64,000 nucleotides of DNA from Geothrix oryzae (GTDB taxonomy: Bacteria; Acidobacteriota; Holophagae; Holophagales; Holophagaceae): positions 1,488,001-1,552,000 of the forward strand of contig NZ_AP027079.1 of assembly GCF_030295385.1 (NCBI RefSeq). The letters run 5' to 3'. The notes under the pieces were generated by a model that made no database searches, had not been told where the DNA came from, and was given only the letters and a program-made list of their open reading frames with translations. Both the position numbers and the translations under genes were made by a program. Positions 28,301-47,529 of this stretch are shown piece after piece (position 1 is the first letter of the stretch; each line of letters opens with the position of its first letter).

Positions 28301-29365
28301 TTGGCCGATCCGTTCCGTTTCCGAGTGAACCAACACGGCCCGGCGGGTTCGCCGGTGCGCGAGGCTTTCGTGCCCGCGAATCCGAAACCGGGTTGGGTGC
28401 GGCTCGAGCTGAAGGCCATGGCCCTGAACCGCCTCGATCTCTGGACCACCGAAGGCCTGCCGGGCTTCCCGCTGCCCCTGCCGCTCACGCCGGGCTGCGA
28501 TGGCGCGGGCGTGGTCGAGGCCATGGGCGAGGGCACGGTCCTGCCGCCGGGCGTGGAACTGGGCGGCAGCGTGATGATCGCGCCGGGCCTCAGCTGTGGC
28601 GTCTGCCCGGCCTGCCTGCGCGGCGACGACATGCTCTGTCCCGCCTACGGTGTGCTGGGCCATGTCTGTGACGGCACGGCCGCCACCCATGTGCTGGTGC
28701 CCGCGGCGAACCTGCTGCCGATTCCGCCGAACTGGGATTTCGAGCAGGCGGCGGCCTTTCCCCTGGTCTTCCTCACGGCCTGGGAGATGCTCGTCCACAA
28801 GGCGGCCCTGCGCCCCGGCGAGACCGTGCTGGTCTGGGGCGGAGGCAGCGGCGTGGGGAGCGCGGCCATCCAGCTGGTGAAGGCCCTGGGCGGCACGGCC
28901 ATCGCCGTGGTGGGCAGCGAGGCCAAGGCCATGAAGTGCTGGGAGCTGGGGGCCGAGCATGCGCTCGTCCGCGGCGACCTGAAGGCCCTGGCCGCCAAGG
29001 TGCGTGACCTGACGGGCAAGCGCGGCGTGGATGTGGTGTTCGAGCACACGGGCGCGGCCACCTGGGGCACCAGCCTCTCCGTCTGCACCCGGGGAGGGCG
29101 CATCGTCACCTGCGGCGCGACCACGGGCCGCGAGACGACCTTCGACCTGCGCGCGCTCTTCGCCAAGCAGATCCAGATCCGGGGCTCGTACATGGGCCGC
29201 CGGGAGCACCTGTGGTCGTTGTTGTCCCTGCTGCGGCGCAATCCCACGAATCCGCCCTTCCGCCCCGTCATCGACCAGGTCTTCGATCTGGCCGACTATC
29301 CCGCAGCCCAGCGCCACCTCGAAGCCGGACAGGGCTTCGGCAAGGTGGTCTGCCGGGTGCCTTGA
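28301..29365 (+). CDS. Zinc-binding-type medium-chain dehydrogenase lacking catalytic-zinc ligands
   Basis: 354 residues from TTG 28301, which has GGAGG five bases upstream. The MDR fold shows a Rossmann motif VWGGGSGVGSAAIQL and the structural-zinc cysteines CGVCPACLRGDDMLC. The usual catalytic-zinc positions differ: the C-H-T-D region reads LNRLDLW, and GHE reads GCD. It is therefore nearer to quinone-oxidoreductase-like MDR proteins than to true alcohol dehydrogenases. Its TGA overlaps the corA start (TGATG). Confidence 0.88.
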   Translation: MADPFRFRVNQHGPAGSPVREAFVPANPKPGWVRLELKAMALNRLDLWTTEGLPGFPLPLPLTPGCDGAGVVEAMGEGTVLPPGVELGGSVMIAPGLSCGVCPACLRGDDMLCPAYGVLGHVCDGTAATHVLVPAANLLPIPPNWDFEQAAAFPLVFLTAWEMLVHKAALRPGETVLVWGGGSGVGSAAIQLVKALGGTAIAVVGSEAKAMKCWELGAEHALVRGDLKALAAKVRDLTGKRGVDVVFEHTGAATWGTSLSVCTRGGRIVTCGATTGRETTFDLRALFAKQIQIRGSYMGRREHLWSLLSLLRRNPTNPPFRPVIDQVFDLADYPAAQRHLEAGQGFGKVVCRVP

Positions 29366-30270
29366 TGCTGCGCAATCTGCCGCTTCCCGAGGGTTCCTCC
29401 TTTGCCTGGGTGGACCTGGTGGACCCCACGGCCGCGGAGATGGCCGAAGTCGCGGACCGCTACGGCCTGCATCCGGCGGCGGTGCGCGACTTCCTCAACC
29501 AGCCCCACCTGCCGAAGTTCGAGCGCCTGCCGGGCCAGCAGCTGCTGATCCTCCGGGCCTACGACGAGGTGGCCAAGCGGGGCGACACCATCCAGGCCAT
29601 GACCCGGCGCCTCGTGGTGCTGATGATGGAGGGAGCCGTCATCACCGTCCATCGACGCGAGCAGCCCTTCTTCACGGCGGCGGCGCAGCAGGCGGCCTCG
29701 GGCGGGGCGGCGCTCCGGCCGGAGCAGCTGGCGCTGGCCCTCTGCGCGGGCGCGGTGAAATCCTTCGATGATCCCTTGAAGGAGAGCGAGGACAAGCTCG
29801 ACCAGATCGAGGCTGCCCTCTTCAGCCGGAAGACCCCGCACCAGGGCGTCAAGCAGATCTACGGCCTCAAGCGCCGCTGCGCGGTCATCAAGCGCACCCT
29901 GGGCCGCATCATGACCTCTCTGGGCCACCTGAAAGAACAGGCCAGGGACGACCAGGGGCTGCTGGCGGATGTGGTGGAGGAGGCGGATCGGCTGCACACC
30001 TGGGCGGACGAACTCCTGGAGAGCGCCACCCACCTCATGAACCTGGAGATCAACCTCGCCAGCCAGCGTACCAACGAGGTCATGCGGGTGCTCACGGTCT
30101 TCAGTGCCTTCTTCCTCCCGCTCACCTTCATCGCGGGGGTCTACGGCATGAACTTCAAGCGGATGCCCGAGTTGGAGCACCGGCTCGGGTATCCGCTCGT
30201 GATCGCCGCCATGGTCCTGACGGCCCTGGCCATCTGGGTCTGGTTCCGGCGGAAGGGCTGGCTGAAATAG
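29365..30270 (+). CDS. corA: CorA-type magnesium/divalent-cation transporter
   Basis: 301 residues from ATG 29365, overlapping the preceding stop by one base. A cytoplasmic alpha/beta domain and long helices precede two C-terminal membrane helices (about 240-260 and 272-292). Between them the pore signature GMN is present in VYGMNFKRMPEL. The basic tail WFRRKGWLK is typical. It is a complete CorA of the shorter kind. Confidence 0.93.
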   Translation: MLRNLPLPEGSSFAWVDLVDPTAAEMAEVADRYGLHPAAVRDFLNQPHLPKFERLPGQQLLILRAYDEVAKRGDTIQAMTRRLVVLMMEGAVITVHRREQPFFTAAAQQAASGGAALRPEQLALALCAGAVKSFDDPLKESEDKLDQIEAALFSRKTPHQGVKQIYGLKRRCAVIKRTLGRIMTSLGHLKEQARDDQGLLADVVEEADRLHTWADELLESATHLMNLEINLASQRTNEVMRVLTVFSAFFLPLTFIAGVYGMNFKRMPELEHRLGYPLVIAAMVLTALAIWVWFRRKGWLK

Positions 30271-30286: not shown

Positions 30287-30724
30287 CTACCAGCAATCGT
30301 TCCCTTCGTATTTGGTGGACAGGATGGTGCCGCGGGCATCGGCCTCCAGGACCACCCGGCAATAGAGGTTGCTGGTCAACGACACAGGGACCTTCCGGGT
30401 CTGGATGCCATCGCTGCTGTTGTTCACCCACTCAGGAGGGGTGGCTCCAGGCGCCTGCTGCACGCTCTCGTGGGTGGTGGTGTTGTGGAATTCCCGATAG
30501 ACGATCTTGTCTTCCTTCTGGTGATAGGCGGCGAAGACATAGGTCTTGCCGCCATCGGGCCTAGCGGAAGTGGTGGAGGGATTGCCGTTGGCCCGGATGA
30601 ATTCGGTGGCGGGGCGACCGACCCAGCGGTTCAGGTTCGCCTCGAAGTCGGCCTTCCTTTTGGGGGCAAGGCAGGCCATGGAGGTCGTCAACAGCAGGCC
30701 GACGAGCAGGGGCGAGGCATTCAT
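30287..30724 (-). CDS. Hypothetical lipoprotein
   Basis: 145 residues. The signal sequence MNASPLLVGLLLTTSMAC ends in a lipobox, so Cys18 is probably lipidated. The central part VGRPATEFIRANGNPSTTS resembles SmpA/OmlA-like small lipoproteins, but the match is short. Two later cysteines (LYCRV and NDCW) could pair. GGAGG lies four bases before ATG 30724. Convergent with corA. Confidence 0.65.
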   Translation of the reverse strand: MNASPLLVGLLLTTSMACLAPKRKADFEANLNRWVGRPATEFIRANGNPSTTSARPDGGKTYVFAAYHQKEDKIVYREFHNTTTHESVQQAPGATPPEWVNNSSDGIQTRKVPVSLTSNLYCRVVLEADARGTILSTKYEGNDCW

Positions 30725-30950: not shown

Positions 30951-32003
30951 GTGAAAGTCCTGATTCTGGGTGTCAACGGCTTCATCGGGTCCCATCTGGT
31001 GGACCGCATCATGCAGGACACGGACTGGGAGGTCTACGGCCTGGATCTTGGCGCCCACAAAGTGGCCGACCATCTGCCCAACCCGCGCTTCCACTTCGTG
31101 GAGGGCGATGTGACCATTTCCAAGGAGTGGATCGAGTACCACATCAAGAAGTGCGATGTGGTGCTGCCCCTGGTGGCCATCGCCACGCCCAAGGTCTATG
31201 TGACCGATCCCCTGCGCGTGTTTGAGCTGGACTTCGAGGAGAACCTCCGCGTGGTCCGCCAGTGTGTGAAATACAAGAAGCGCGTGGTGTTCCCCAGCAC
31301 CTCCGAAGTCTACGGCATGTGCCCCGACGCGGAGTTCGACGAGCACGAGTCGCCCCTGGTGACGGGCCCCATTCCCATGAACCGCTGGATCTACAGCACC
31401 AGCAAGCAGCTCCTCGACCGCGTGATCTGGGCCTACGGCTTCCAGCAGGGCTTGAAGTTCACCCTCTTCCGTCCCTTCAACTGGATGGGCCCCAAGCTCG
31501 ACAGCCTGAACACCGCCAAGGAGGGCAGCAGCCGCCTGGTGACGCAGTTCAGCTGGAACCTCTTCAACGGCGAGCCCCTGAATCTGGTGGACGGCGGCCA
31601 CGCGCACCGCTGCTTCTGCGATGTCAGCGACGCCATGGACGGCCTGATGGCGATCCTCCGCAACGAGGGCGGCAAGGCTGACGGCGGCATCTTCAACATC
31701 GGCAATCCCGCCAACGACTACAGCGTGCGCGAGATCGCCGAGATGATGATCGCCATCTGGAAGGACCACCCCTTCCGCATCGAGCGGGGCATCCCCGAGG
31801 GGCGCACCATCGAGACCGGCAGCGGCGAGTTCTACGGCAAGGGCTATCAGGATGTGGCCCGCCGCACCCCCAGCATCAAGCGCATGCAGAGCACCTTCGG
31901 GTTCGATCCCAAGGTGTCGATGAAGGACTCGCTGAAGAAGGCCATGGACTTCTTCGTCGAGGAGCACAAGGCGCTGGAGAAGGTCGTCGAGACCGAGAAC
32001 TAG
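30951..32003 (+). CDS. UDP-glucuronate oxidative decarboxylase, homologue of the ArnA C-terminal domain
   Basis: 350 residues and a very close match to the dehydrogenase half of ArnA. The start VLILGVNGFIGSHL is the NAD fold; KKCDVVLPLVAIATP, ELDFEENLRVVR and PSTSEVYGMC follow. The catalytic Tyr/Lys pair is in RWIYSTSKQLLDRVIWAYG, then LFRPFNWMGP. ArnA_DH turns UDP-glucuronate into UDP-4-keto-pentose for L-Ara4N synthesis. The formyltransferase half is absent. It heads a rightward run of sugar-transfer genes. Confidence 0.9.
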   Translation: MKVLILGVNGFIGSHLVDRIMQDTDWEVYGLDLGAHKVADHLPNPRFHFVEGDVTISKEWIEYHIKKCDVVLPLVAIATPKVYVTDPLRVFELDFEENLRVVRQCVKYKKRVVFPSTSEVYGMCPDAEFDEHESPLVTGPIPMNRWIYSTSKQLLDRVIWAYGFQQGLKFTLFRPFNWMGPKLDSLNTAKEGSSRLVTQFSWNLFNGEPLNLVDGGHAHRCFCDVSDAMDGLMAILRNEGGKADGGIFNIGNPANDYSVREIAEMMIAIWKDHPFRIERGIPEGRTIETGSGEFYGKGYQDVARRTPSIKRMQSTFGFDPKVSMKDSLKKAMDFFVEEHKALEKVVETEN

Positions 32004-32020: not shown

Positions 32021-33688
32021 ATGACGCGTCGCGAACGCACTTCCCTCCTCATCCTCTGGTTCTTCCTCGGCCTGCTGCCGCTGCTGGTGCGACCGCTCTG
32101 GGAGCCGGATGAAGGGCGCTATGCGGAGATCCCGCGGGAGATGCTCGCGGCCGGCGACTGGCTGACGCCGCGCCTCAACGGGGTGCTCTACTTCGAGAAG
32201 CCGCCCCTTCAGTACTGGCTGTCGGCCCTCAGCATGAAGCTCTTCGGGGTGAACGGCGCCGCGGCGAGGCTGCCCCTGGCCCTGGCTTCGGGGCTCATGA
32301 TCTGGGCGGCCTGGCGGCTGGCGAAGCGCCTGGGCGCCCGGGATCCCCTGTGGGCTCCCTTCATGGCGGCCACGGGCCTGCTGGCCTTCCTGGTGGGCCA
32401 GATCCTCACCCTCGATGCCCTCTTCAGCGCCTTCCTGGTGGCGGCCCTGGCCGCCTTCGTGGAGGCGGCAGCCCAGCGCAAGGAGGGGCAGGGCGGCCTG
32501 GGGTGGACGCTGACGGCCTTCCTCTTCATGGCCGGCGCCATGCTCACCAAGGGGCTGGCCCAGGTGATCCTCATGGGCGGCATCCTGGCGTTCTCGCTGC
32601 CCTTCGCCTGGAAGGACGCCGCGCTCCGGCGGGCCGTGCTGCGCACGGCCTTCGATCCCCTGGGCTGGCTGCTCTATCTCGGGCTGGTGGTGCCCTGGTT
32701 CTGGGCCGTCAACCGCGCGAATCCGGGTCACGCTCAGTTCTTCTTCATCCACGAGCACTTCACGCGCTTCCTCACCCATGAACACGCCCGCCAGGGCTCG
32801 AACAACTGGCTGCTGGACAAGCTCTACTTCGTGGGCGTCCTGGCCGTGGGCCTGCTGCCCTGGCTGTCCGCCACGGCCGTGGGGTTGAAGCGCGGCTGGA
32901 CCTTCCTCAGGGGCCGGGGTCCGCAGGGCCAGGACCATCTGGCCCGCTGGGTCGTGGGCATCACCGCGCTGGCCTTCGTCTGGCCCCTGGCCTTCTTCAG
33001 CGCCTCCGGCTCCAAGCTGGCCCCCTACATCCTGCCGGTCCTCGTGCCGCTTGCGGCTCTGGCCTGCACCTTCGAGCGCGAGGGGGAAGAAGCCGCCGCC
33101 CTGCGCCGCATGGGCAAGGAGCTGGTGCTGCTCGGTGGGATCTTCCTCCTGGCCGCGGCCATCTTCCGCAAGGATCTGGGCGGGTTCGCCTGGATGCTGG
33201 CCCTCGGCGCCGGCTTCGCGGGCCTCGGCCTCTGGGCCCACCGGCCCAAAGGGCTGACGGCTCCCCGTCTTATGACGGCCATGGGAGCGGCCCTGTGGTT
33301 GCTGGTCTGGGCCGCCCAGGTGACGGCGGGGCCGGGCAAATCCGTGGCCGATCTCCTTCGCGCCGCGCCGGCGAATGCCCAGTGGATCAGCTACGGCACC
33401 TACTTCCAGGGGCTGCCTTTCTACGCCCGCACCCGGGCCGTGGTGGTGGCGGGCACCGGCGAGCTGGCCTACGGCCGGGACAAGCTGGGCGCCGAGGCGG
33501 CGCGCTGGTTCAACGAAGACCCTGCTGCCCTGGGCCCCATGGCCGATCACCTGAAGCAGACCGATCCTTCGCGCCCCGTCCTGGTGATGGCCAAGGCCGC
33601 CAGCTGGAAGCAGCTGGACGCCGGTGAAATGGCCCGCTGGGAGGTCGTGGCGCGCAACCCCGCGGCCGTGGTGGCCCGGCGGCGCTGA
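32021..33688 (+). CDS. ArnT-like GT83/PMT-family glycosyltransferase (first copy)
   Basis: 555 residues with about a dozen membrane helices. The first periplasmic loop has WEPDEGRYAEIPREML then GDWLTPRLNGVLYFEKPPL, a clear ArnT signature with the acidic pair near residue 33. ArnT moves L-Ara4N from undecaprenyl phosphate to lipid A at the periplasmic face of the inner membrane; here the sugar is not known. It follows the ArnA-like gene by 17 bases. Confidence 0.9.
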   Translation: MTRRERTSLLILWFFLGLLPLLVRPLWEPDEGRYAEIPREMLAAGDWLTPRLNGVLYFEKPPLQYWLSALSMKLFGVNGAAARLPLALASGLMIWAAWRLAKRLGARDPLWAPFMAATGLLAFLVGQILTLDALFSAFLVAALAAFVEAAAQRKEGQGGLGWTLTAFLFMAGAMLTKGLAQVILMGGILAFSLPFAWKDAALRRAVLRTAFDPLGWLLYLGLVVPWFWAVNRANPGHAQFFFIHEHFTRFLTHEHARQGSNNWLLDKLYFVGVLAVGLLPWLSATAVGLKRGWTFLRGRGPQGQDHLARWVVGITALAFVWPLAFFSASGSKLAPYILPVLVPLAALACTFEREGEEAAALRRMGKELVLLGGIFLLAAAIFRKDLGGFAWMLALGAGFAGLGLWAHRPKGLTAPRLMTAMGAALWLLVWAAQVTAGPGKSVADLLRAAPANAQWISYGTYFQGLPFYARTRAVVVAGTGELAYGRDKLGAEAARWFNEDPAALGPMADHLKQTDPSRPVLVMAKAASWKQLDAGEMARWEVVARNPAAVVARRR

Positions 33689-33703
33689 GGAAACGCGCCG
33701 TCC

Positions 33704-33991
33704 CTACTTCTTCACGGCCTCTTTGATCCCCTTGCCGGCTTCCTTGGCGCCCCTGGCGACGCCCTTGCCGGCGGTCTTCGCGCCGCGGCCCACGGCCTTC
33801 CCGCCTTCCTTCGCCGCATGGCCGATGGCCTTGCCGCCCTTCTTGAAGCCCTGGCCGATCTCCTTGCCCGCCTGCTTGATGTCCTCCTTCACGCCGTCCG
33901 CCGAGGGGGCGGCCGAAGGAGTGGCCGAAAGGGTGGCCGAAAAGGTGGTCGGCGTGGCCAGAAGCACGAGGCTGAAAAGGAGAGGGCCCAT
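33704..33991 (-). CDS. Secreted Lys/Gly-rich protein with 11-residue repeats
   Basis: 95 residues. A signal peptide (about 1-20) and a Ser/Ala/Pro stretch precede five tandem 11-residue repeats with the consensus K..GK.(I/V)G..., for example KKGGKAIGHAA then KEGGKAVGRGA. The pattern would form an amphipathic helix like LEA or synuclein-type 11-mers. It is the only leftward gene inside the Ara4N-like cluster, between the two ArnT-like genes. Function unknown. Confidence 0.6.
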   Translation of the reverse strand: MGPLLFSLVLLATPTTFSATLSATPSAAPSADGVKEDIKQAGKEIGQGFKKGGKAIGHAAKEGGKAVGRGAKTAGKGVARGAKEAGKGIKEAVKK

Positions 33992-34044
33992 GCCCCCATT
34001 CTAACGCCTGGGCGGAAGGCCGCTTTCCGGGCGAAGATGGAGGG

Positions 34045-35742
34045 ATGGACGGACACCTGCCCCCGCCGCCTCCCTTGAGGTCCAGAGCCCGCCTGGCGGA
34101 CTGGCTGCGTGCCCATGCGCCCGAGCTGCTCTTCGCCCTGCTCCTCCTGGCCGTGCTGCCCATGCGCGACCTGTGGGCGCCGGACGAGCCCGACTTCGCC
34201 CAGTGCGTGAAGGAGATGCGCCTCCGCGGCGACTGGATCCTGCCCTACCTGAACGGCGTGCCCTACAGCGAAAAGCCGATCCTCTACTACTGGGTGATGA
34301 AGGCCTCCGCGGGGCTGCTGGATGCGCTCACCGGCGGCCTGGGCTTCACCCAGGGTGTGGCGGCCTGGGCCCTGCGCCTGCCGTCGGTGCTCGCCGCCGT
34401 GGCCTTCCTGGCGGCCTTCCGCCGCTGGGCCGCGCGCTTCCTGGAACCGGGGATCGCGGAACCTGCGGCGCTGATCCTGGCCACCACGCCCCTCTGGTTC
34501 TGGCAGAGCCAGTTCATCCAGATCGATCTGCTCTTCGCGGCCCTGCTGGCCTGGAGCTGGTTCTGCTGGCTCGGAGGCTACCTGCTCTTGCGGGATCGGC
34601 AGGAGGGTGCCTCCCCTGATGAGCACCGCCGCTGGTTCCTGAAGGCCTACTTCTGGCTGGCCCTGGCCTTCCTCGCCAAGGGGCCCCTGGCACCGGTGCT
34701 GTCGGTGCTCCTGCTGGGGGCCTTCCTCCTCTGGCAGCGGGACTTCGCCGTGCTGCGCCGCGCGGGCATCTTCGCGGGCCTGGGGCTCACACTGCTGCTC
34801 GTGGCGCCCTGGTATGTGGCCGCCGGGCTGAAGGGCGGGGCGCACTACGCCTACGAGCTGATCATCTTCCAGAACTTCGAGCGGGCCACGAAGGCCTGGG
34901 ACCACATCCATCCCTGGTGGAAGTACGGCGAGTATCTCCTCGGGGACTTCTTCCCCTGGGTGCTTCTGCTGCCGGCGCTGGGGCTGCACCTGCGGCGGGA
35001 GCGGAGCCTGGGCGACCCGGCCAAGCGCTTCCTGCTGCTGGCCTTCCTCGTGCCGTTCATCTTCCTCAGCGCGGTGCAGAGCAAGCAGGGCAAATACCTG
35101 CTCATGGGCTATCCCTTCCTGGCGCTGCTGCTGGCCGACCTGTTCCGGCGGATGGCGGGCGCCCGCGCCCGGCGCCTGGGCCTGCTGCTCGCGGCCGGCC
35201 TCGCCGTGCCCGCCCTCGCGCTGACCGCCCTGGCCCTGGGGGCCGGCGGACCGAAAATGCGGGTCCAGGTGGCGCCCTTCCTCGGCCCGATCCGCCTCAT
35301 GGCCCTGGTGATGGTGGCGGGGACGCTCGGGACGGCCGTCCAGGCCTGGCGCCAGCGGGCCCAGGGCCTGATTCCCGCCGCGGCGCTGGCCCTCGGCCTG
35401 CTCTACCTGGTGGGTGGCACCTGGGGCTTCCGACTGCTGGACCCGCCGAAGTCGTACCGTCGCTGGACCGCCGCCGTACAGCCTCTGATCGCCGGGCGGC
35501 AGGTCTACTACTGGCAGACCATCCGCAGCGGCGTCATGGTCTACACGGATCACCTCATGCCCGAGCTACGCAGCGCCGGGGCCCTGGAACGGCTGGACCC
35601 CGAGGCGCGGCTGGTGGCCCAGCGCGGCGAGTGGGAGCTGGATGCCTGGGGCATGACGCCGGCCCTGCGGGCCCGCTTCGAGGTGCTGCTGGCCGTGCCC
35701 ACGGGCGGTGGCGAGATCCTGCTGCTGAAGAAGAAGCCATGA
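34045..35742 (+). CDS. ArnT-like GT83/PMT-family glycosyltransferase (second copy)
   Basis: 565 residues with many membrane helices. The ArnT-like loop is present in diverged form: LWAPDEPDFAQCVKEMRL then GDWILPYLNGVPYSEKPIL. Position PDFA in place of RYAE suggests a different acceptor or donor from the first copy. ATG 34045 sits very close to a GGAGG, so a slightly later start is possible. Its stop overlaps the next start as ATGA. Confidence 0.88.
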   Translation: MDGHLPPPPPLRSRARLADWLRAHAPELLFALLLLAVLPMRDLWAPDEPDFAQCVKEMRLRGDWILPYLNGVPYSEKPILYYWVMKASAGLLDALTGGLGFTQGVAAWALRLPSVLAAVAFLAAFRRWAARFLEPGIAEPAALILATTPLWFWQSQFIQIDLLFAALLAWSWFCWLGGYLLLRDRQEGASPDEHRRWFLKAYFWLALAFLAKGPLAPVLSVLLLGAFLLWQRDFAVLRRAGIFAGLGLTLLLVAPWYVAAGLKGGAHYAYELIIFQNFERATKAWDHIHPWWKYGEYLLGDFFPWVLLLPALGLHLRRERSLGDPAKRFLLLAFLVPFIFLSAVQSKQGKYLLMGYPFLALLLADLFRRMAGARARRLGLLLAAGLAVPALALTALALGAGGPKMRVQVAPFLGPIRLMALVMVAGTLGTAVQAWRQRAQGLIPAAALALGLLYLVGGTWGFRLLDPPKSYRRWTAAVQPLIAGRQVYYWQTIRSGVMVYTDHLMPELRSAGALERLDPEARLVAQRGEWELDAWGMTPALRARFEVLLAVPTGGGEILLLKKKP

Positions 35743-36770
35743 TCCCGCCCGGCGCCCACTGGCTTCGCCTGCCCCGCTTCGTGGGCGACGCGGTGCTGAT
35801 GCACCAGGCCGCGGCCCCGCTGATCGCCGCGGGGCTGCCCCTGGTGGCCTGGGGCCCGGCGGCCACGGTGGAACTCTTCGAGGGCGCCGAGGGCTATGGG
35901 GGCGCCGTGGCCGATCCCCCGGGAAAGACCGGCCTGCTGGAGGGGGCGCGGCTGCTCCGCACCCATCGCCCGGCCTCCGTGCTGGCTCTGGCCAAGAGCC
36001 TGCGCGCCCCGGCCGCGGCCTTCCTGGCCCGCGTGCCGCGCCGCGTGGGCTGCGGGGACGGCGGCGCCTCGCTCCTGCTGACCGCCAGCTTGAAATACTG
36101 GGACCGGGATGACCACGCGCTCGACCGCTACCGGGACATCGTGCGGTGCGGCTATCCCGAGTTGGAACCGGCGGCTTTCCGGCCCTTCCATCCGCGGCCG
36201 ACGAGCGCGGAGGCCGTGGCTGACCAGCGCCGCCGCCAGGGATTCGACGCCGCGCCCTACCTCGCGTTCGCCATCGGGGCGGCGGCCGGCGCCAAGCGGC
36301 TGGGGCTCGACCTGCTGGTGGATCTGGCCCACCGGGCCCTGGGGGCCGGGTACCGCATCGTGGTGCTGGGCGGGCCCGGCGACGATGTGATCTGGGGCGG
36401 CAGGCTGAAGGAGCAGGTGCCGGAGGTGCTGAACCTCACGGCGCAGCTCCCCTGGTCCCAGAGCGCCGCCTGGCTTGCGGGCGCCACCGCCGTGCTGGCC
36501 AACGATTCAGGCTTGGCCCACCTTGCCGCGGCTTGCGGCGTGCCCGTGGTGACCGTCTTCGGGCCCACCATCCCCCGCCACACCGCGCCCCGGGGGCCTC
36601 AAGTGACAGTGCTGCGCAAGGAGGACCTCGCCTGCCTCGAATGCCAGCAGTGGCACTGCCCGCTGCCGGATCACCCCTGCATGACTCAGCTGCCTGCAGA
36701 GCGCATCTGGGCCGCCCTTGAAGCCCAGGCCGTCACCCGCCCAGTCCTGCCCGCCCCGGAGGCCCCATGA
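35739..36770 (+). CDS. GT9-family (heptosyltransferase-like) glycosyltransferase
   Basis: 343 residues from ATG 35739. Two Rossmann halves are typical of LPS core heptosyltransferases: the N-terminal FVGDAVLMHQAAAPLI and ASVLALAKSLRAPAAAF, then the C-terminal donor site GGPGDD and NDSGLAHLAAACGVPVVTVFG. It ends with a Cys-rich block CLECQQWHCP. It overlaps both neighbours by ATGA, so translation is coupled with the ArnT-like and ArnE/F-like genes, pointing to lipopolysaccharide decoration. Confidence 0.9.
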   Translation: MIPPGAHWLRLPRFVGDAVLMHQAAAPLIAAGLPLVAWGPAATVELFEGAEGYGGAVADPPGKTGLLEGARLLRTHRPASVLALAKSLRAPAAAFLARVPRRVGCGDGGASLLLTASLKYWDRDDHALDRYRDIVRCGYPELEPAAFRPFHPRPTSAEAVADQRRRQGFDAAPYLAFAIGAAAGAKRLGLDLLVDLAHRALGAGYRIVVLGGPGDDVIWGGRLKEQVPEVLNLTAQLPWSQSAAWLAGATAVLANDSGLAHLAAACGVPVVTVFGPTIPRHTAPRGPQVTVLRKEDLACLECQQWHCPLPDHPCMTQLPAERIWAALEAQAVTRPVLPAPEAP

Positions 36771-37144
36771 GCCCCAACCTGAAGGCCATCCCCCTCATCG
36801 TGCTGGGCGTGCTGCTCAATGCCGCCGCGCAGATCTGCCTGAAGAAGGGCCTGCAGGCGGCCGGGGGCATGCAGTTGGCCGCGGGCCCGCTGTTCCGCCT
36901 CATGCTCGAGCCCTGGGTCATCGCGGGACTGGCCTGCTACGCCGTGAGCGTCGTCGTCTGGCTCGGCGCCCTGTCCATGGTGCAGGTGAACTACGCCTAC
37001 CCCTTCCTGGCGCTGGGCTTCATCGCCAACGCCCTCATGGCCCGGGCCTTCCTCGGCGAGGCCATGACGCCCATGCGGTGGGTGGCGCTGTGCATCATCG
37101 TCATCGGCGTGGGGCTGCAGGCCTGGAGCGGACGGGGGCACTGA
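36767..37144 (+). CDS. Small EamA/SMR-type transporter, ArnE/ArnF-like
   Basis: 125 residues with four membrane helices. It has the EmrE-like start LIVLGVLLNAAAQICLKKGL and the loop NYAYPFLALGFIANALMA. ArnE/ArnF heterodimers flip undecaprenyl-phosphate-L-Ara4N; one subunit only is encoded here, so it would act as a homodimer or with a distant partner. It is the last gene of the cluster. Confidence 0.8.
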   Translation: MSPNLKAIPLIVLGVLLNAAAQICLKKGLQAAGGMQLAAGPLFRLMLEPWVIAGLACYAVSVVVWLGALSMVQVNYAYPFLALGFIANALMARAFLGEAMTPMRWVALCIIVIGVGLQAWSGRGH

Positions 37145-39967: not shown

Positions 39968-40057
39968 GCCTAATCATGCCGCGAAGGCGAGTAAGCAGGG
40001 AGATGAGAGAGAGCGAAAGGCAAAGCAGGCAGGGGCTGAGCTAGCAGAGGGCTAGGC
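39968..40057 (-). repeat. attC-1 (degenerate, left end of array)
   Basis: Cores gcctaat and gctaggc, 90 bp. The left arm and stem are lost, but the agatgagagagagcgaaaggca loop is still recognisable. Confidence 0.65.
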
Positions 40058-40441
40058 GCTGCGTGATTTCGAAAGGAGGCCGCCCAGCCACGCGCACGGC
40101 AAGGTGGCGAGGGCGAGTGCCATGGGGTACCACGCGGGCCCGAAATGGTTTTGAATGGCAGTCCTAGCCCCAAGAAGGCTGAGAATGAAACTGATGATGC
40201 CGAGAAGCATGGCGTGCAGCATGGGATTTCGACCCGAAAGCCTTCCTGCGATGTAACAACCAGTCACGGTAAAGACACATCGATAGGAAAGGGCCAGGAG
40301 ATTGGGCCAGAAGCCCCAGACCGGCTGGCCCCAGGCTGGATAGAGCCTGGCTTGTTGGAGCACATGGTCGGTGGAGAGTGAAAGGCCGACCGCCGCGATC
40401 CACCCAATGAGGACCGCCCCGACACTCCTTGGCAAGTTCAC
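40052..40441 (-). CDS. Cassette: small membrane protein
   Basis: 129 residues from GTG 40441, with AGAGGG eight bases upstream. The frame is open to 40564, but that part is attC-2 sequence. About four membrane helices (SVGAVLIGWIAAVGLS, LLALSYRCVFTVTGCYIAG, MLLGIISFILSLLG, MALALATLPCAWLGG). No family recognised. The stop lies inside attC-1. Confidence 0.6.
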   Translation of the reverse strand: MNLPRSVGAVLIGWIAAVGLSLSTDHVLQQARLYPAWGQPVWGFWPNLLALSYRCVFTVTGCYIAGRLSGRNPMLHAMLLGIISFILSLLGARTAIQNHFGPAWYPMALALATLPCAWLGGLLSKSRSA

Positions 40442-40475
40442 GAAACCCTCTAAGTGGTGTGGTCCTCGGGTTGAC

Positions 40476-40598
40476 GCCTCACGGGAGAGGCTGATCGGCC
40501 CGCCTGCACCGAGGTGCTGAGCGAAGACGAAGAAACAAGATATTGAGAGAGAGCGGAAGGCCATGCCGGCGGTGTGCGAGTGGAGCGAGGTGTCAGGC
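40476..40598 (-). repeat. attC-2 (degenerate)
   Basis: Cores gcctcac and gtcaggc, 123 bp. The right arm is diverged to gtgcgagtggagcgag. Confidence 0.7.
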
Positions 40599-40964
40599 CT
40601 GCCTGGGATGAGGGGGAACTTTTTCTGTTTTTACGATGTCGACGGAAATTTCAATGGCTGGGATGGTTCCTTTGTTCTCGAGCCAGTGATGGGTGTTTCG
40701 ATCTTCTGGCCAGCCCACTCCAGGGCCATAGTCGGTGGAAATCCCGTTTCGATGATCAGTGATCGTACCTTGAAGAATGAAGACAGTACCCGGTCTCCCA
40801 ACATGGTCATGAAGCGGGCCGAACACCCCTCCAGGTGCGATGGTGACCCTTCGCATTCGAAGCTGTCGGCCTTCCATCCCATCGATCTCTGGACCTAGGT
40901 CGACCGTCGAAAGCAGCTGAACGGTCACACCGTTTGTCTCTGGAACGACCTCGTCTTTGTTCAA
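40593..40964 (-). CDS. Cassette: cupin-domain protein
   Basis: 123 residues from TTG 40964, which has GGAGG six bases upstream. A cupin_2-like barrel: RVTIAPGGVFGPLHDHVGRP gives the metal-binding His pair, and VGWPEDRNTHHWLENKG the second motif. Such proteins bind small molecules or metal. The stop TGA is supplied by the core of attC-2. Function unknown. Confidence 0.75.
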   Translation of the reverse strand: MNKDEVVPETNGVTVQLLSTVDLGPEIDGMEGRQLRMRRVTIAPGGVFGPLHDHVGRPGTVFILQGTITDHRNGISTDYGPGVGWPEDRNTHHWLENKGTIPAIEISVDIVKTEKVPPHPRQA

Positions 40965-40988
40965 GGTGGCCTCCGGTCGTGAGGTGGG

Positions 40989-41118
40989 GTCTGACGAATG
41001 AAGATAACGGCCCTGGCCTGCGCCTGCGTCGAGACGAGGAGCCAAGCCAAGGAAGCGGGAAGCTGGGAGAGCGCGGAAGCCAACATGGGCGAGGCCCAAG
41101 TTGAGCTAAAGGTTAGGC
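40989..41118 (-). repeat. attC-3 (diverged)
   Basis: Cores gtctgac and gttaggc, 130 bp; the stem has several mismatches. Confidence 0.75.
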
Positions 41119-41133
41119 CGCGGCAGGCCCCCT

Positions 41134-41628
41134 TCAACCTCCGACGGGGTTAGGAACTCCAATGGATGAGAACCATGAAGCAAGATGATCTGCGTGCTTG
41201 CCTGATGCCAGAGGAATCGACTTGCCTTCGTTCAGGTCGTTCAAGGTTAGGGATCGATCGATCCACTCAAGCGTGACCGCTGATTTGGAGTGGACGACCC
41301 TTTGAGTTATGCCGAGTGGAACCAATATTGGTCCAATGTTGATCCAAGTCGTAGGGACTTGGTGAAATACGACCGAATCACCTTCGAGGCTTACCTTTCT
41401 GGGGAAAGTCCGAATGGCGAAGGTCGCGAGAGCAAGGTAGATACCACCGTTGAACAGTGAGGTTATGAGTGGCCGCAGGGTGTGTAGATGGAGCGAATCA
41501 TAGACACCGCTCATCAACACGAGGGCAGCCCCGAGTTGTAGGAACCTCTTAAAGAACAGCATGAAGCCCGAGAGTTCGATGAGGAACTCTGAATCGGGAA
41601 CTTTCAAGCTGAGTTCTTCTGGATTCAT
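41134..41628 (-). CDS. Cassette: membrane protein with soluble C-terminus
   Basis: 164 residues from ATG 41628, five bases from the core of attC-4. A short acidic start (MNPEELSLKVPDSEF) precedes two or three membrane helices (FLQLGAALVLMSGVYDS and GGIYLALATFAIRTF) and a C-terminal domain of PH-like look (RKVSLEGDSVVFHQVPTTW, LTLNDLNEGKSIPLASG). It resembles no named family with certainty. Confidence 0.6.
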   Translation of the reverse strand: MNPEELSLKVPDSEFLIELSGFMLFFKRFLQLGAALVLMSGVYDSLHLHTLRPLITSLFNGGIYLALATFAIRTFPRKVSLEGDSVVFHQVPTTWINIGPILVPLGITQRVVHSKSAVTLEWIDRSLTLNDLNEGKSIPLASGKHADHLASWFSSIGVPNPVGG

Positions 41629-41633
41629 GGGCG

Positions 41634-41755
41634 GCCTAATGAATGAAGCTAACTGGCTCCGCCTGCGCCGAGGCACTGGGCGGAGCCGAGGAAGCGGGAC
41701 GTTGAGAGAGCGGAAGGCCATGCGGGCGGGATCCGAGTTGAGCTGGAGTTGAGGC
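41634..41755 (-). repeat. attC-4 (diverged)
   Basis: Cores gcctaat and gttgaggc (one extra base), 122 bp. Confidence 0.75.
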
Positions 41756-42502
41756 TCACCGCGGCATCAGCGCGAAGACACCCCAGCCCAGGTACTCACG
41801 CGTGTACGCGGCGTAGTGCTCGGGTTCCGAGGTCAGTTTGGCTCGAACTTCTTTCGCGAACGGATCATCTGGATTGGCTTCAAGCCATCGGCGCATGGTG
41901 AGCCATTTGGCCGCCTCGTATCTGTCCCAGCCGTCCTGGTCAGCTAGAACCATTTCAACGATGTCATAGCCAAGGCGGCCGAAAGACGCGAGAAGGTCCG
42001 GGAGCATGAGAAAATCGGAGATTGAGCTGGCAAGGCACCCCTTGGCAACATCTTCCGTCGGGGGTGACTGCCGCCAGTAGGGCTCACCGATGAGGATGAT
42101 CCCTCCGGTACGCAGGCTCCGGGAGAGAAGTTCGATCGTGCCGGCGACTCCCCCGCCGATCCAAGTGGCGCCAACACAGGCGGCCACACTGACCTTCTCA
42201 TCCGAGACATAACCGGCAGCATCGCCATGGAGGAACTTGACTTGATCGGCGACGCCGAGTTCTTCGGCACGGAGGTTCGCTTGCTCGGTGAACAACGGGC
42301 TCATGTCGATACCGAAGCCGATGATGCCGTGATCGCGTGCCCAGGTGCAAAGCATCTCCCCCGAACCGCTGCCGAGGTCGAGCACCCGAGTTCCCGATTC
42401 CAGACGCAGCGCAAGGCCAAGAGTGGCCAGCTTTTCGGGTGTGAACGGGTTGTGGATGCGGTGCGCACTTTCAGTGATGTTGAAGATCCTTGGAATGTCC
42501 AT
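41756..42502 (-). CDS. Cassette: SAM-dependent class I methyltransferase
   Basis: 248 residues. Motif I is VLDLGSGSGEMLCTWARD (residues about 40-57), followed by GFGIDMSP and FLHGDAAGYV, the SAM pocket. IILIGEPYWRQSP follows at motif IV/V. The substrate is unknown; the overall layout resembles ubiquinone/menaquinone-type and cyclopropane-like methyltransferases. It is among the longest cassette genes and ends just outside attC-4. Confidence 0.85.
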   Translation of the reverse strand: MDIPRIFNITESAHRIHNPFTPEKLATLGLALRLESGTRVLDLGSGSGEMLCTWARDHGIIGFGIDMSPLFTEQANLRAEELGVADQVKFLHGDAAGYVSDEKVSVAACVGATWIGGGVAGTIELLSRSLRTGGIILIGEPYWRQSPPTEDVAKGCLASSISDFLMLPDLLASFGRLGYDIVEMVLADQDGWDRYEAAKWLTMRRWLEANPDDPFAKEVRAKLTSEPEHYAAYTREYLGWGVFALMPR

Positions 42503-42543
42503 TCCGGGAAATCTCCTTATGCGCGTGAGCAGACACGGTCATG

Positions 42544-42572
42544 GCCTAACGAATGTGGGCGGAGCGTTGGGT
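42544..42572 (-). repeat. attC-5 (29-bp deletion remnant)
   Basis: gcctaacgaatg at one end and gttgggt at the other with only 15 bases between; stem and loop are gone. Probably no longer recombinogenic. Confidence 0.55.
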
Positions 42573-42583
42573 GCGAGATGGCC

Positions 42584-43096
42584 CTAGCGATCCGGGGTCA
42601 CGGATATGACCAGCTTCAATTTGGCGGGGTTCTCGCCCTTGAAAAGGTTGTCGAATTCTTCTTTTGAAATTTCCAAGGAGGAACTATCCGATCTATTCTG
42701 CTTTTCCTTGGCAGAAATCTCGAGCTCCGTGATGGTGTTTATCGCACGAGCACCACCAATGATCGAACACTGAACCCTGACCTTTCGATCATATGAAGGA
42801 CGAACATAGGCGGTCGCCTTGATGGTTAACTTGATGCGCTTCGACCAAGTTGTGGATTTCGTAATCAAGATGAGTGGCAGGGAGACCCCGTCGCACACAA
42901 ACTTATCTTGATCGGTATAGGGATAGATATTTCCAGGCTCCTCCACCTTGAGTCGATCCAATGGCAATTCAATGACCATGGGGGAAGAAAATTCTCCATG
43001 TTTTAAATCTGCTTCAGACCCCTGTTTTGCGATCACCTGCCCCATGAGTGGCGAGACCAACAAGGTTAAGACCAGGCATAGATGCTTGAAATTCAT
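42584..43096 (-). CDS. Cassette: exported protein
   Basis: 170 residues from ATG 43096. A signal peptide (MNFKHLCLVLTLLVSPLMG) leads to a beta-rich domain with paired cysteines (FVCDGVSLPLIL and VQCSIIGGA). The last third is charged (EISAKEKQNRSDSSSLEISK). No family recognised. It stops at a TAG next to the truncated attC-5. Confidence 0.65.
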   Translation of the reverse strand: MNFKHLCLVLTLLVSPLMGQVIAKQGSEADLKHGEFSSPMVIELPLDRLKVEEPGNIYPYTDQDKFVCDGVSLPLILITKSTTWSKRIKLTIKATAYVRPSYDRKVRVQCSIIGGARAINTITELEISAKEKQNRSDSSSLEISKEEFDNLFKGENPAKLKLVISVTPDR

Positions 43097-43123
43097 GGAA
43101 GATCCTTTGAAAAGGGATGGTGA

Positions 43124-43246
43124 ACCCAACCAAAACGGGCAACCGGCCCTGTCTGCACCGAGGCACTGAGCGAAGCCGAGATGCGAGAGGCTGAGAGAGA
43201 GCGGAAGGGAAGGCAGGCAGGATCTGACTTGAGCGAGGAATTAGGC
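43124..43246 (-). repeat. attC-6 (diverged)
   Basis: Cores acccaac and attaggc, 123 bp. Confidence 0.7.
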
Positions 43247-43279
43247 CGCAGGGTGCACATGCTTGATCATCGTAAACGG

Positions 43280-43681
43280 CTACGGGGCAGGCTGGGAAGC
43301 CATGTGGAGCAGCCCCCACCCATGGCCATCCGGATCCACGAAACTGTGTGTGTACATGAACCCAAAATCTTCGGGCTTGTCGTAGGTTGAACCACCAGCC
43401 GCAAGGGCCTTGGCGACCAATTCATCTACCTGTTCACGGCTCTCACAACTGAGAGATATCAAGACTTCGACGGCCTGATTCGTGTCGCAGATAGCTTTGG
43501 GCGTGAACTCACGGAACTTGGCATGGGTACCCAACATCACAGACATTGCATCATTGATGACGATGCACGCGGCCGTGTTGTCGCTGAACTGTGGGTTGTG
43601 AACAAATCCAAGCGCCTTGAAGAAGCTGATCGACCTCTGGAGATCAGCGACCGGGAGGGTGAGGAACACCTGGTTGATCAT
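43280..43681 (-). CDS. Cassette: VOC-family (glyoxalase/bleomycin-resistance fold) protein
   Basis: 133 residues. Two beta-alpha-beta-beta-beta modules: VFLTLPVADLQRSISFFKALG, then EVLISLSCESREQVDELVAK and ending FVDPDGHGWGLLHM. This is the common small VOC type often labelled extradiol dioxygenase-like; substrates are mostly unknown, though some confer antibiotic resistance. 42 bases separate the start from attC-7. Confidence 0.85.
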   Translation of the reverse strand: MINQVFLTLPVADLQRSISFFKALGFVHNPQFSDNTAACIVINDAMSVMLGTHAKFREFTPKAICDTNQAVEVLISLSCESREQVDELVAKALAAGGSTYDKPEDFGFMYTHSFVDPDGHGWGLLHMASQPAP

Positions 43682-43723
43682 GCCAATCTCCTTTGGCCTG
43701 GTAATGACGGCGATGGGGGTGCG

Positions 43724-43855
43724 GCCTAATGAATGAGGCCTACCGGCCGCACCTGCGCTGAGGGGCTGGGCAGAGCTGAGGAATCGAGAAGTTGAGAGAG
43801 CGTGTGTGAGAGAGGGACAATGCAGGCGGGGTCGGAGGTGAACGAGGGGTTAGGC
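43724..43855 (-). repeat. attC-7
   Basis: Cores gcctaat and gttaggc, 132 bp with a loop about 8 bases longer than usual. Confidence 0.85.
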
Positions 43856-44322
43856 CCAGCTGCTTCGAGCACCTCCAGCGTGAAGTCCAACCAACCCTCA
43901 GCTGTATAGGCAGTAGGACGAACCTCTAGAACTTTATTTATTGCTACTTTGACAGGTAAGTCGAAAGCCCTCATGAGGAAATATGCCAGAAATAGCCCTG
44001 TTCTGTCTTTTCCCGAGGAGCAGTGGACCAGCACCCTGTGCCCTTGTGTGAGTTGTTGGAGCACGAAGGAATACGCACACGGAAGGGCGTTCATGCAGTG
44101 ATCGGCGTCACCGGACTGCGGCGGCACATGCGGCGGCAAGGCAATGCAAGCGTAGGCCATTCCGAGCTGATCGAAGTCTTCTGGATGGCAGAGCACCCCA
44201 TCATTGACCGAAAGAACTGCACTAAACCCTGCTGATCTAAGTTCGGCAAGTTTCCAAGGCTGTCGATCGGGTCCACATCGACCGGCAAGCTGGTCTTGGA
44301 TCACCCAGAAAATGTGCTGCAT
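43726..44322 (-). CDS. Cassette: dual-specificity phosphatase-like protein with attC-encoded tail
   Basis: 198 residues from ATG 44322. The P-loop VHCSSGKDRTGLF gives CX5R with Cys101 and Arg107, so a phosphatase of the DSP/PTP group is well supported. Residues about 156-198 are read from attC-7, ending at a stop in its far core, and are not part of the fold; the original stop seems lost or was never present. The natural substrate is unknown. Confidence 0.8.
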   Translation of the reverse strand: MQHIFWVIQDQLAGRCGPDRQPWKLAELRSAGFSAVLSVNDGVLCHPEDFDQLGMAYACIALPPHVPPQSGDADHCMNALPCAYSFVLQQLTQGHRVLVHCSSGKDRTGLFLAYFLMRAFDLPVKVAINKVLEVRPTAYTAEGWLDFTLEVLEAAGPNPSFTSDPACIVPLSHTLSQLLDSSALPSPSAQVRPVGLIH

Positions 44323-44329
44323 CCATGCG

Positions 44330-44456
44330 ACCTAACGGGTGAAGCTAACCGGACCAGCTGCGGCTGAAACGATTAGCAGAGAACGGGGGAAGGAACAGCC
44401 AAGGCGGAAGGGCTTGGCCGCTCGCGGCTGGGTCCGAGTAGAGCGGAGGGTTAGGG
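44330..44456 (-). repeat. attC-8 (different stem)
   Basis: Cores acctaac and gttaggg, 127 bp. The outer arms match the others, but the stem and loop (accagctgcggctg...cgcggctgggt) differ. Confidence 0.75.
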
Positions 44457-44693
44457 TACCTGCCCGGTCAAGTCGAGGAAAAGTAGGTATGAAATGAAGA
44501 TGAGCAATCCTAGGCCTAGAACACCCAGGTAAGCAGTTCGAATCCAAAATGGTACGGGGTCGGCTTCACGATAATACTTTGTCTCGAAATATACGGAGAC
44601 CCCCCGTTTGATTGACCTTCGAAACAGGTAGAGGAGACAGATGCTCAACCCATAGGCGAGGAGAAAGACAAAGGCATGTTGGAAGAGGCGCAT
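44451..44693 (-). CDS. Cassette: small membrane protein
   Basis: 80 residues with two membrane helices (FVFLLAYGLSICLLYLF and TAYLGVLGLGLLIFISYLLF) and a basic loop between (RRSIKRG). The TAA stop is the core of attC-8. No family recognised. Confidence 0.6.
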   Translation of the reverse strand: MRLFQHAFVFLLAYGLSICLLYLFRRSIKRGVSVYFETKYYREADPVPFWIRTAYLGVLGLGLLIFISYLLFLDLTGQVP

Positions 44694-44712
44694 CCGGTCC
44701 AGTCCTTGGGTG

Positions 44713-44835
44713 GCCTAACGAATGAAGCTAAGCGGCCACGCCTGCACCGAGTCGATGAGTGGAGCCGAGATAGCGTAATGCTGGGAGAGAGCGGAAGGCA
44801 ATGCAGGCGGCGCCGAGCTGAGCTAAGGGCTAGGC
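44713..44835 (-). repeat. attC-9
   Basis: Cores gcctaac and gctaggc, 123 bp; left arm ctaagcgg with a mixed right arm ccgagctgag. Confidence 0.85.
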
Positions 44836-45174
44836 CAAGTCATTACGATCACCGCGAGTAGTTGGATTGGATATGACCAGGAATTCGACAGGATCATTGT
44901 ATGGATTCTTGAACTGATGTGGTTTGCCAGCCGCAATGTGAATGCCCTCACCGGCCGAGAGTGGATAATCTTGGCCTTCTAGTTCCATGATGGCGTGACC
45001 GGTGAGGATGAAGAAAAACTGCTGAGCCACCGAATGGGTGTGCCGTTGTTCCGATCTGCCCGGTGGAACCGATTCTTGGATGACATGGAGGCTTGGGTTC
45101 TTAAGCAGATGCCATCCATCACAGTTGTCGCCCCAAACATAGTGCTCAGCATTGTTTGTAGAAACGATCGTCAT
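44830..45174 (-). CDS. Cassette: cupin_2 protein
   Basis: 114 residues. The barrel has motif 1 PPGRSEQRHTHSVAQQFFF and motif 2 AGEGIHIAAGKPHQFKNP, so a full set of metal-binding His/Glu residues is present. Small single-domain cupins often act as isomerases or sugar/ligand sensors; the role is unknown. The TAG stop is the core of attC-9. It is unlike the cupin at 40593 in sequence. Confidence 0.85.
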   Translation of the reverse strand: MTIVSTNNAEHYVWGDNCDGWHLLKNPSLHVIQESVPPGRSEQRHTHSVAQQFFFILTGHAIMELEGQDYPLSAGEGIHIAAGKPHQFKNPYNDPVEFLVISNPTTRGDRNDLA

Positions 45175-45190
45175 GAGAAATCCGGGTAGG

Positions 45191-45314
45191 GCCTAACGAA
45201 TGAAGCCAAGCGGCCACGCCTGTACCGAGGCGACGAGCGGAGCCGGGGAAGCGAGAAGTTGAGAGAGAGCGGAAGGCAATGCCGGCGGGGTCCGACTTGA
45301 GCGAGAGGTTAGGC
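45191..45314 (-). repeat. attC-10
   Basis: 124 bp; covarying G-type arms (ccaagcgg/ccgacttg). Confidence 0.92.
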
Positions 45315-45725
45315 GTCTGCATTTGAATGGCCATTCTGGCTTGAAGTGTGGAATGCCAAGGTGATGATTGACGGAAAAATAAAGCCCTTGAGATAGGAGA
45401 GCGGATGCCTACCCAGGGTGAAATCGACGGGCAAGTTCCCGAAATGCGCCCAATAGTGCGTTGCAACAAGCCCAGCGATTCCGGCCCACATTCCATACAA
45501 TGCCCAGCGTTTACCAAAGACGACGAGCAACAAACTGAGAGTAATCATCACTCGAAGGACCGATTGCACGTATTCGAATGTTGTATGCGTGCTGGTTCCA
45601 GCACCCAGATACAGACCGCACAGAGTAAAGATGTGGTAATAGATCAGCAGCCCGGCGAGAACAAAGATGATCAGGCGCCGGGATAACAGAAATCGGCTCG
45701 TCTGCATTCCAGGCAGTGTGGTCAC
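45309..45725 (-). CDS. Cassette: four-helix membrane protein
   Basis: 138 residues with about four membrane helices (LIIFVLAGLLIYYHIFTL, VLRVMITLSLLLVVFG, ALYGMWAGIAGLVATHY, GFIFPSIITLAFHTS). The TAA stop is the attC-10 core. No family recognised. Its upstream attC is the short foreign-looking one, attC-11. Confidence 0.6.
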   Translation of the reverse strand: MTTLPGMQTSRFLLSRRLIIFVLAGLLIYYHIFTLCGLYLGAGTSTHTTFEYVQSVLRVMITLSLLLVVFGKRWALYGMWAGIAGLVATHYWAHFGNLPVDFTLGRHPLSYLKGFIFPSIITLAFHTSSQNGHSNADA

Positions 45726-45747
45726 CTCGGCCCTCCTTTCTACAGAC

Positions 45748-45814
45748 GCCTAACGAAGGGAGTTCAGCGGATCCGGCCGCTGGCGGCCGGGTCCGCTGCA
45801 ACGAATGGTTAGGC
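45748..45814 (-). repeat. attC-11 (67 bp, different type)
   Basis: Cores gcctaac and gttaggc, but the inside is unrelated: agcggatccggccg, loop ctgg, then cggccgggtccgct, a compact hairpin. This is the classical short attC form seen in mobile integrons. Confidence 0.88.
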
Positions 45815-46040
45815 AGGGCGAGAAGTCAGTTTGAGAGTGACTCGGCCTGCGAAACCAAAGGTTTGAACGATTGAAAGAACGACTGGAATGGAGAACTGAA
45901 GGCTTTAAACGCTGGTCGTGGACCCAGGTTACCCACGAAGATGGCAGAAACTCGGCCGTTTCTGGGTGGGCCACCGCGAACGGTGTTGAATGGCGGCGCG
46001 AACGGTAACAGCTGACCAGAAGGGCGAAAGAGCTGAGTGG
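45815..46040 (-). other. Cassette without a convincing gene
   Basis: 226 bases between attC-11 and attC-12. Frames are open on the minus strand (including one from GTG 45974 that runs into attC-11), but none has a good start, ribosome site or recognisable protein pattern. It may be a regulatory RNA or promoter cassette, or a dead gene. With its two attC sites it makes the longest gene-free stretch of the array (45726-46178). Confidence 0.6.
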
Positions 46041-46163
46041 GCCTAACGAATGAAGCTAACCGGACCCGCCTGCACCGAGGCGCTGAGCGGAGCCGAGGAA
46101 GCGAGAAGCGAGAGAGAGCGGAAGGCAGTGCAGGCGGGGTCCGAGTTGAGCTAGGGGTTAGGC
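46041..46163 (-). repeat. attC-12
   Basis: 123 bp; C-type arms (ctaaccgg/ccgagttg). Confidence 0.93.
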
Positions 46164-46178
46164 TGACCAGGTTTGCCC

Positions 46179-46490: not shown

Positions 46491-46496
46491 GGGGCG

Positions 46497-46971: not shown

Positions 46972-46977
46972 TCAGAA

Positions 46978-47101: not shown

Positions 47102-47114
47102 CGACGGTCAGAGA

Positions 47115-47522: not shown

Positions 47523-47529
47523 GAAGGAG

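Follow-up and report, generated by a model that had tools for sequence, protein, structure and literature searches.

Long amphipathic helices of the 11/3 type that coat lipid are well described in animals. Alpha-synuclein, perilipin-4 and the apolipoproteins carry 11-residue repeats that form such a helix, weakly hydrophobic on its face and basic along the flank, and the apolipoprotein and synuclein 11-mer helices are reported to fold upon lipid contact (PMC5889406). Plin4 repeats are reported to be nearly devoid of aromatic residues, and the purified Plin4 helix to have a poor interaction with bilayer membranes (PMC5889406). Motifs of 11 residues are also given as characteristic of group 3 LEA proteins (PMC12871917). 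Small exported helical or repeat proteins include Lpp/OprI and Ag473, the latter described as having tandem repeats, reported as 7-residue, and no aromatic residue (PMC3402496).

Here we analyze a 64,000-nucleotide stretch of the Geothrix oryzae genome (the window), in which an earlier note had described a secreted protein built from five 11-residue repeats. The repeats were borne out at exactly 33704-33991 on the minus strand, with a lag-11 identity of 0.49, and we use K11 as a working name for the 95-residue protein encoded there. K11 shares the repeat, helix type, weakly hydrophobic face and basic flank of the synuclein, perilipin-4 and apolipoprotein helices, however, it is bacterial, has a signal-peptide-like start and is rich in Gly and Lys, and neither the window protein nor any of 20 singly scored orthologs has a Pfam match above cut-off. 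It is hydrophilic like group 3 LEA proteins, small and predicted to be helical like Ag473 and Lpp/OprI, and short and probably exported like the entericidins.

The K11 Gene and Its Surroundings

The K11 gene and its start region comprise the following features:
33704..33991, minus strand: K11 coding sequence including the stop codon, 95 residues (orthologs, purifying selection)
33893..33991, minus strand: K11 residues 1-33, hydrophobic signal-peptide-like segment and linker (ortholog N-termini, AF2)
33707..33892, minus strand: K11 residues 34-95, 5.6 repeats of 11 residues, predicted as one amphipathic 11/3 helix (repeat statistics, AF2)
33998..34003, minus strand: TAGAAT, probable -10 box lying 6 nt upstream of the ATG (conservation in Geothrix loci)
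34033..34040, minus strand: CCATCTTC, a conserved element of the divergent intergenic region (36/42 Geothrix loci, 0/16 others), possibly part of the other gene's start region

K11 contains 15 Lys, 2 Arg, 2 Asp and 5 Glu, giving a net charge of +10, and lacks Trp, Tyr and Cys. Its N-terminal sequence, together with orthologs that have clearer signal peptides, suggests that it is probably exported or secreted; the linker that follows is rich in Ser, Thr, Pro and Ala and is longer here than in most relatives. The gene is single-copy in the 3,265,981-base single-contig genome (next match E=0.07), and the closest named locus, in Geothrix sp. BP11, is 99% identical. Among 24 orthologs with a 60-residue repeat core the median dN/dS is 0.18 and no pair reaches 1 (275 usable of 276 pairs), by which measure K11 is under purifying selection. 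The possibility of a spurious open reading frame was rejected on these ratios and on the in-frame length steps described below.

A TANNNT box starts 12 nt (34 loci) or 11 nt (8 loci) before the K11 ATG in 42/42 Geothrix loci, while a Shine-Dalgarno-like core is found in 1/42 of them vs. 9/16 loci in other genera. A TANNNT box about 12 bp upstream has served as the criterion for leaderless genes, which made up 13.3% of genes on average over three Acidobacteria genomes (PMC3160421). By this criterion the Geothrix K11 mRNA is probably leaderless. A consensus sigma-70 scan of 33600-34150 gave no -35/-10 pair, and the -10 box is called on its conservation; a scan of the same interval gave one terminator-like site against 0.5 expected. 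A CTTCC-N3-GGAAG inverted repeat, present in 13/42 Geothrix loci and 0/16 others, was considered as a shared operator and is not claimed as such.

The surrounding genes of the window are as follows:
29212..30270, plus strand: CorA-type Mg2+ transporter, preceding the arn-like genes
30951..32003, plus strand: ArnA C-terminal-domain-like UDP-4-keto-pentose/UDP-xylose synthase (529.9 bits, cut-off 294)
32021..33688, plus strand: ArnT-like glycosyltransferase 1 (PMT_2), convergent neighbor of K11 (Pfam, PRK13279 score)
34045..35742, plus strand: ArnT-like glycosyltransferase 2 (PMT_2), divergent neighbor of K11 (Pfam, PRK13279 score)
35739..36770, plus strand: glycosyltransferase family 9 (GT9), heptosyltransferase-like
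36767..37144, plus strand: ArnE-like small membrane protein (below curated cut-offs)

The gene order is corA, a small ORF (minus), ArnA-C-terminal-like, ArnT1-like, K11 (minus), ArnT2-like, GT9, ArnE-like and mtnA, and no single ORF with both ArnA domains was found. The small ORF between corA and the ArnA-like gene (30287-30724, minus strand, 145 residues) has a signal-like start and no Pfam match. K11 had been placed between two lipid-A transferase genes. It is indeed flanked by two ArnT-like genes of the PMT_2 type, however, their scores with the ArnT model PRK13279 are 183.8 and 107.5 bits (cut-off 567), which leaves the lipid-A assignment plausible rather than established.

Elsewhere in the window, at about 40000-58700, lies a stretch of low GC3 with small, mainly minus-strand ORFs separated by about 30 imperfect repeats of 100-160 nt, each bounded by GCCTAAC...GTTAGGC. 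From its sequence it looks like a chromosomal integron cassette array.

Distribution and Conserved Linkage

K11 is matched in 59/77 genomes of the family at E<=0.001 (18/77 have no match). Restricting the set to the 48 genomes with completeness of 90% or more and contamination of 5% or less leaves 40 with a match. The repeat is thus conserved in relatives, the point on which its proposed significance had been staked beforehand. Within Geothrix, 43/47 genomes match at the same threshold, the exceptions being G019, G023, G032 and G040. G019 and G040 also have no ArnE-like or ArnT1-like match and the G023 contig ends within the ArnT1-like gene, so that in these three the absence is probably due to assembly gaps. 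The complete genome G032 retains the ArnT/ArnE-like genes, and in the approximately 140 nt between its matched ArnT1-like and ArnT2-like regions there is no K11 match or K11-like ORF.

At class level, none of the 16 genomes lying outside the family gave a match at E<=1e-4. When 396 genomes were drawn from the phylum, family included, at least 38 matched at E<=1e-5, at least six of them outside the family (E 6e-9 to 9e-6); both counts are lower bounds because at most 14 candidates were scored per genome. The six loci outside the family (L129-L134) differ from K11 in their neighbors and, given the low complexity of the sequences, may be either relatives of K11 or convergent. Three (L129, L130 and L132, Acidobacteriota family f10) encode Lys-rich 11-mers behind a signal-like start. 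The others (L131, L133 and L134, family f48) resemble K11 in their first part only, followed by a different conserved helix. The f48 proteins are small, with a signal-like start, and each lies beside neighbor genes that are similar by sequence.

For comparison of neighbors and sequences one locus per genome was taken (59 genomes); L073 is truncated at the start of its contig, leaving 58 proteins, and omission of three duplicates of other proteins gave an alignment (A1) of 55 orthologs. Neighbors within 300 nt were surveyed at the 58 loci with the window proteins as the only probes, some loci ending too soon to tell. The divergent neighbor of K11 is ArnT2-like at 45/58 loci, ArnE-like at 5 and GT9 at 3, with none of these at the other 5; that is, one of the three is divergent from K11 at 53/58. 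The ArnT1-like gene is the convergent neighbor at 45/58. Outside Geothrix, the divergent link holds at 11/16 loci and the convergent link at 4/16. A homolog search around arnT-like genes had been proposed as a check, and this conserved linkage to ArnT/ArnE-like genes favors a lipid or lipopolysaccharide-related role without proving it.

The tie, although strong, can be broken. K11 lies away from the arn-like genes in G051 of genus g3 and at four loci of genus g9; in G051 a GT2-type glycosyltransferase gene lies no more than about 2 kb from it. These five loci, together with the absence of K11 from G032, indicate that K11 is not essential to the ArnT/ArnE-like genes. Both the ArnE-like gene (72/77 family genomes, E<=1e-10) and the ArnT1-like gene (70/77, E<=1e-60) are more widespread than K11. 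In genus g9, K11 adjoins an acyltransferase gene in L108 and L109 (by Pfam) and a gene of similar sequence in L110 (by sequence resemblance); an ankyrin-repeat protein gene lies near K11 in L108, and a similar sequence near it in L109 (again by sequence resemblance).

Helix Geometry and Length Variation

From Val34 to its C-terminal end (62 residues), K11 consists of five 11-mers and seven further residues. The lag-11 identity given above, taken over these 62 residues, was reached by 0/100,000 shuffles, and in a control that took the best of lags 2-22 the observed value was matched by 0/20,000. At the DNA level, too, a 33-nt tandem repeat is scored (2.6 copies, 73% matches). An ideal 11/3 helix turns by 98.2 degrees per residue, and the hydrophobic moment peaks at 98.0-99.0 degrees per residue in 55/55 orthologs, the observed moment being reached by fewer than 10 of 1000 shuffles in each. 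The amphipathic 11-residue helix proposed for this ORF thus gains strong support.

Counted on the 24 alignment rows with a 60-residue core, repeat position 1 is Val/Ile (93%), position 5 is Ala, Val, Phe, Ile or Leu, position 6 is Lys (94%; Lys or Arg 98%), position 9 is Gly (88%), position 10 is Lys/Arg (84%), and positions 3 and 7 are mainly polar. On this pattern the lysines flank one side of a weakly hydrophobic face of small residues, and few large residues occur on the apolar face. An AF2 model from 17 sequences predicts a helix at 4-12, a loose low-confidence linker and a single continuous helix at 31-94 (mean pLDDT 63.5, pTM 0.26; block means of 60-75 along helix 31-94). The model fits a lone, conditional helix in K11 and says nothing on binding.

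The repeat varies in length between relatives. Measured by alignment columns from the first repeat residue to the last Val/Phe in the 55 orthologs, the core is 60, 71, 82 or 93 residues in 43, a single class modulo 11, and 67, 78 or 89 residues in nine; the remaining three measure 85, 98 and 44 residues, the last becoming 42 once a misaligned end was corrected by hand. At least 15 length changes are required on a 43-row tree of the neighboring ArnT1-like protein, in which 11/40 inner branches have poor support. Slippage of the 33-nt unit may account for steps of 11 residues and would give steps of 7 or 4 less easily. With steps of either 11 or 7 residues the hydrophobic stripe stays nearly in phase (a step of 7 shifts it by about 33 degrees), which points to selection on the helix, although the 55 rows are non-independent through shared ancestry.

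A Proposed Role in Coating Lipid

We tentatively favor, as quite possible though short of probable, a role for K11 as a periplasmic and conditionally helical polycation that coats anionic lipid, namely lipid A or the outer membrane, in the manner of synuclein and perilipin-4. Its exact job is held to be less likely than the lipid-surface coat as such. K11 would be exported, and in the periplasm its mature repeat of about 62 residues would be unfolded when free. By analogy with published 11-mer helices, contact with an anionic lipid surface would fold it into a single long 11/3 amphipathic helix, with a weakly hydrophobic interface stripe of Val/Ile at position 1, Ala/Val/Phe at position 5 and Gly/Ala at positions 4, 8 and 9. 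The Lys or Arg residues at positions 6 and 10 would pair with phosphates, and the resulting polycation coat would lie on phosphate-bearing lipid, most likely lipid A under modification or the periplasmic face of the outer membrane, acting alongside the adjoining ArnT/ArnE-like genes. It is from this adjacency and the many lysines that we infer lipid A or the outer membrane as the target and charge masking as the job. The sequences themselves show the repeat, its helix phase, its conservation and changing copy number, the gene linkage and the promoter-like box.

Counting for the lipid coat are the position of the moment peak, the length steps, the net charge, the lack of Trp, Tyr and Cys, the linkage, the AF2 helix, the precedent of the apolipoprotein, synuclein and Plin4 repeats, and a weak resemblance to lipid-surface families: the best single orthologs score 19.7 bits for ApoLp-III (cut-off 36.3), 19.3 for the Senescence family (cut-off 24.6) and 15.1 for the Apolipoprotein family (cut-off 90). 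Counting against it are G032 and the other genomes among the 18 with no K11 match, set beside an ArnE-like gene found in 72/77, the g9 and G051 loci away from arn-like genes, a glycine content that is high for a helix, the modest mean pLDDT, and weak matches that extend to antimicrobial peptides and unrelated families. The poor interaction with bilayers reported for Plin4 (PMC5889406) also calls for caution over the analogy.

Family Searches and Alternative Explanations

Window K11 reaches no Pfam or NCBIfam cut-off; Moricin is its only Pfam match (E=1.6) and entericidin B its only NCBIfam match (6.6 bits of 94). The best PHROGs match has E 0.047, a PDB sequence search with the single protein gave a ribosomal protein (E=0.17), and an Rfam search at gathering thresholds gave no match in the window. 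Searches of the 55 orthologs, read by E-value only, gave 31 Pfam families at E<=1, 25 of them listed, and 24 NCBIfam families. None of the orthologs scored singly (20 for Pfam, 16 for NCBIfam) reached a cut-off within the E-value limits used. The synuclein and perilipin families are absent from the Pfam matches of window K11 (E<=10) and from the 25 of 31 families listed for the orthologs. Among the weak matches are cationic antimicrobial peptides and families that are plainly unrelated, and as chance resemblance is expected for helices of Ala, Gly and Lys, the weak matches are only hints to physical type. K11 is a small-protein family placed in no curated family tried, of a physical kind that is already known, and no description of it or of a like periplasmic protein was found among the open-access literature matches listed.

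K11 could instead be an LEA-like protectant, a disordered periplasmic protein shielding membranes or proteins upon drying, salt or freezing, which we consider unlikely. The 11-mer motif that it has in common with group 3 LEA proteins (PMC12871917) and its hydrophilic, Gly/Ala/Lys-rich composition agree with such a role, as do weakly similar secreted 11-mer proteins at three f10 loci, where no arn-like gene was recognized among the listed neighbors (judged without profiles). However, the likeness to LEA proteins that had been raised does not extend to family membership, since the LEA_4 profile (PF02987) has no match in the genome at E<=10; nor is LEA_4 among the 25 of 31 Pfam families listed for the 55 orthologs. 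Protection would also leave the linkage to glycolipid-type genes unexplained.

A structural periplasmic helix is considered unlikely as well. K11 chains would bundle or form filaments through their small-residue face, in alanine-zipper style, acting as spacers or stiffeners of the envelope whose length would follow from the copy number. Ag473 lipoproteins (NF047840) are the commonest NCBIfam match, in 17/55 orthologs (best E=8.3e-05) and 9/16 of those scored singly, and the Lpp/OprI alanine zipper (NF040598) is matched in 2/55 (best E=0.0054). A PDB search with a K11 profile likewise gave matches that include designed proteins, namely a helical repeat protein (E=0.00075) and coiled coils (best E=0.087). 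These scores are far under the cut-offs (at most 23.4 bits of 100 for Ag473; 17.2 of 43 for Lpp/OprI, in one of six proteins scored), Ag473 differs further in its reported 7-residue repeat (PMC3402496), window K11 has no Cys for a lipid anchor, and few large residues line the apolar face.

That K11 is a self-made cationic, membrane-active peptide of the entericidin or moricin kind, with ArnT-like modification of lipid A as self-protection, appears very unlikely. It is a cationic amphipathic helix linked to polymyxin-resistance-type genes, and weak matches are seen to Moricin (15/55 orthologs, best E=0.027; the commonest Pfam family among the 25 of 31 listed), Clavanin (3/55, best E=0.016) and Entericidin (3/55, a short similar stretch, best E=0.0057). 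Clavanin, however, reaches 15.9 bits (cut-off 21) and Moricin at most 13.6 of 27.6 among the 20 orthologs scored singly, a set that does not contain the best Moricin and Entericidin members. Entericidin (PF08085) membership was rejected: the profile finds three genome matches below cut-off, none at the K11 gene (E<=10), and its models, of 20 and 48 positions, contain no repeat array. Entericidins bear a lipobox cysteine, and window K11 has no Cys. K11 is moreover single-copy and conserved, and lies away from arn-like genes in some genomes. Least probable of all is a secreted polycation binding exopolysaccharide, DNA or mineral surfaces outside the membrane, with which the high lysine content and the nearby GT2-type gene of G051 would accord, as the strict helix phase in 55/55 orthologs is not needed by a simple polycation.

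Significance

The lipid coat that we favor could be taken further, to a reading that we regard as unlikely. K11 would then be a bacterial counterpart of the synuclein and perilipin coats, forming the protein arm of a charge-control locus of the arn type. Gain and loss of 33-bp units would tune the length of its periplasmic helix, and the helix would stand in for Mg2+ by masking lipid A phosphates. The gene for the CorA Mg2+ transporter is also found in the arn-type locus of many Geothrix. If the lipid coat is true, a conserved, probably exported, Lys-rich version of the animal helices tied to lipid-A-type genes would mean that this physical device is at work in the bacterial envelope too. K11 would also be a small modular protein whose natural length variants could serve to relate helix length and phase to lipid binding.
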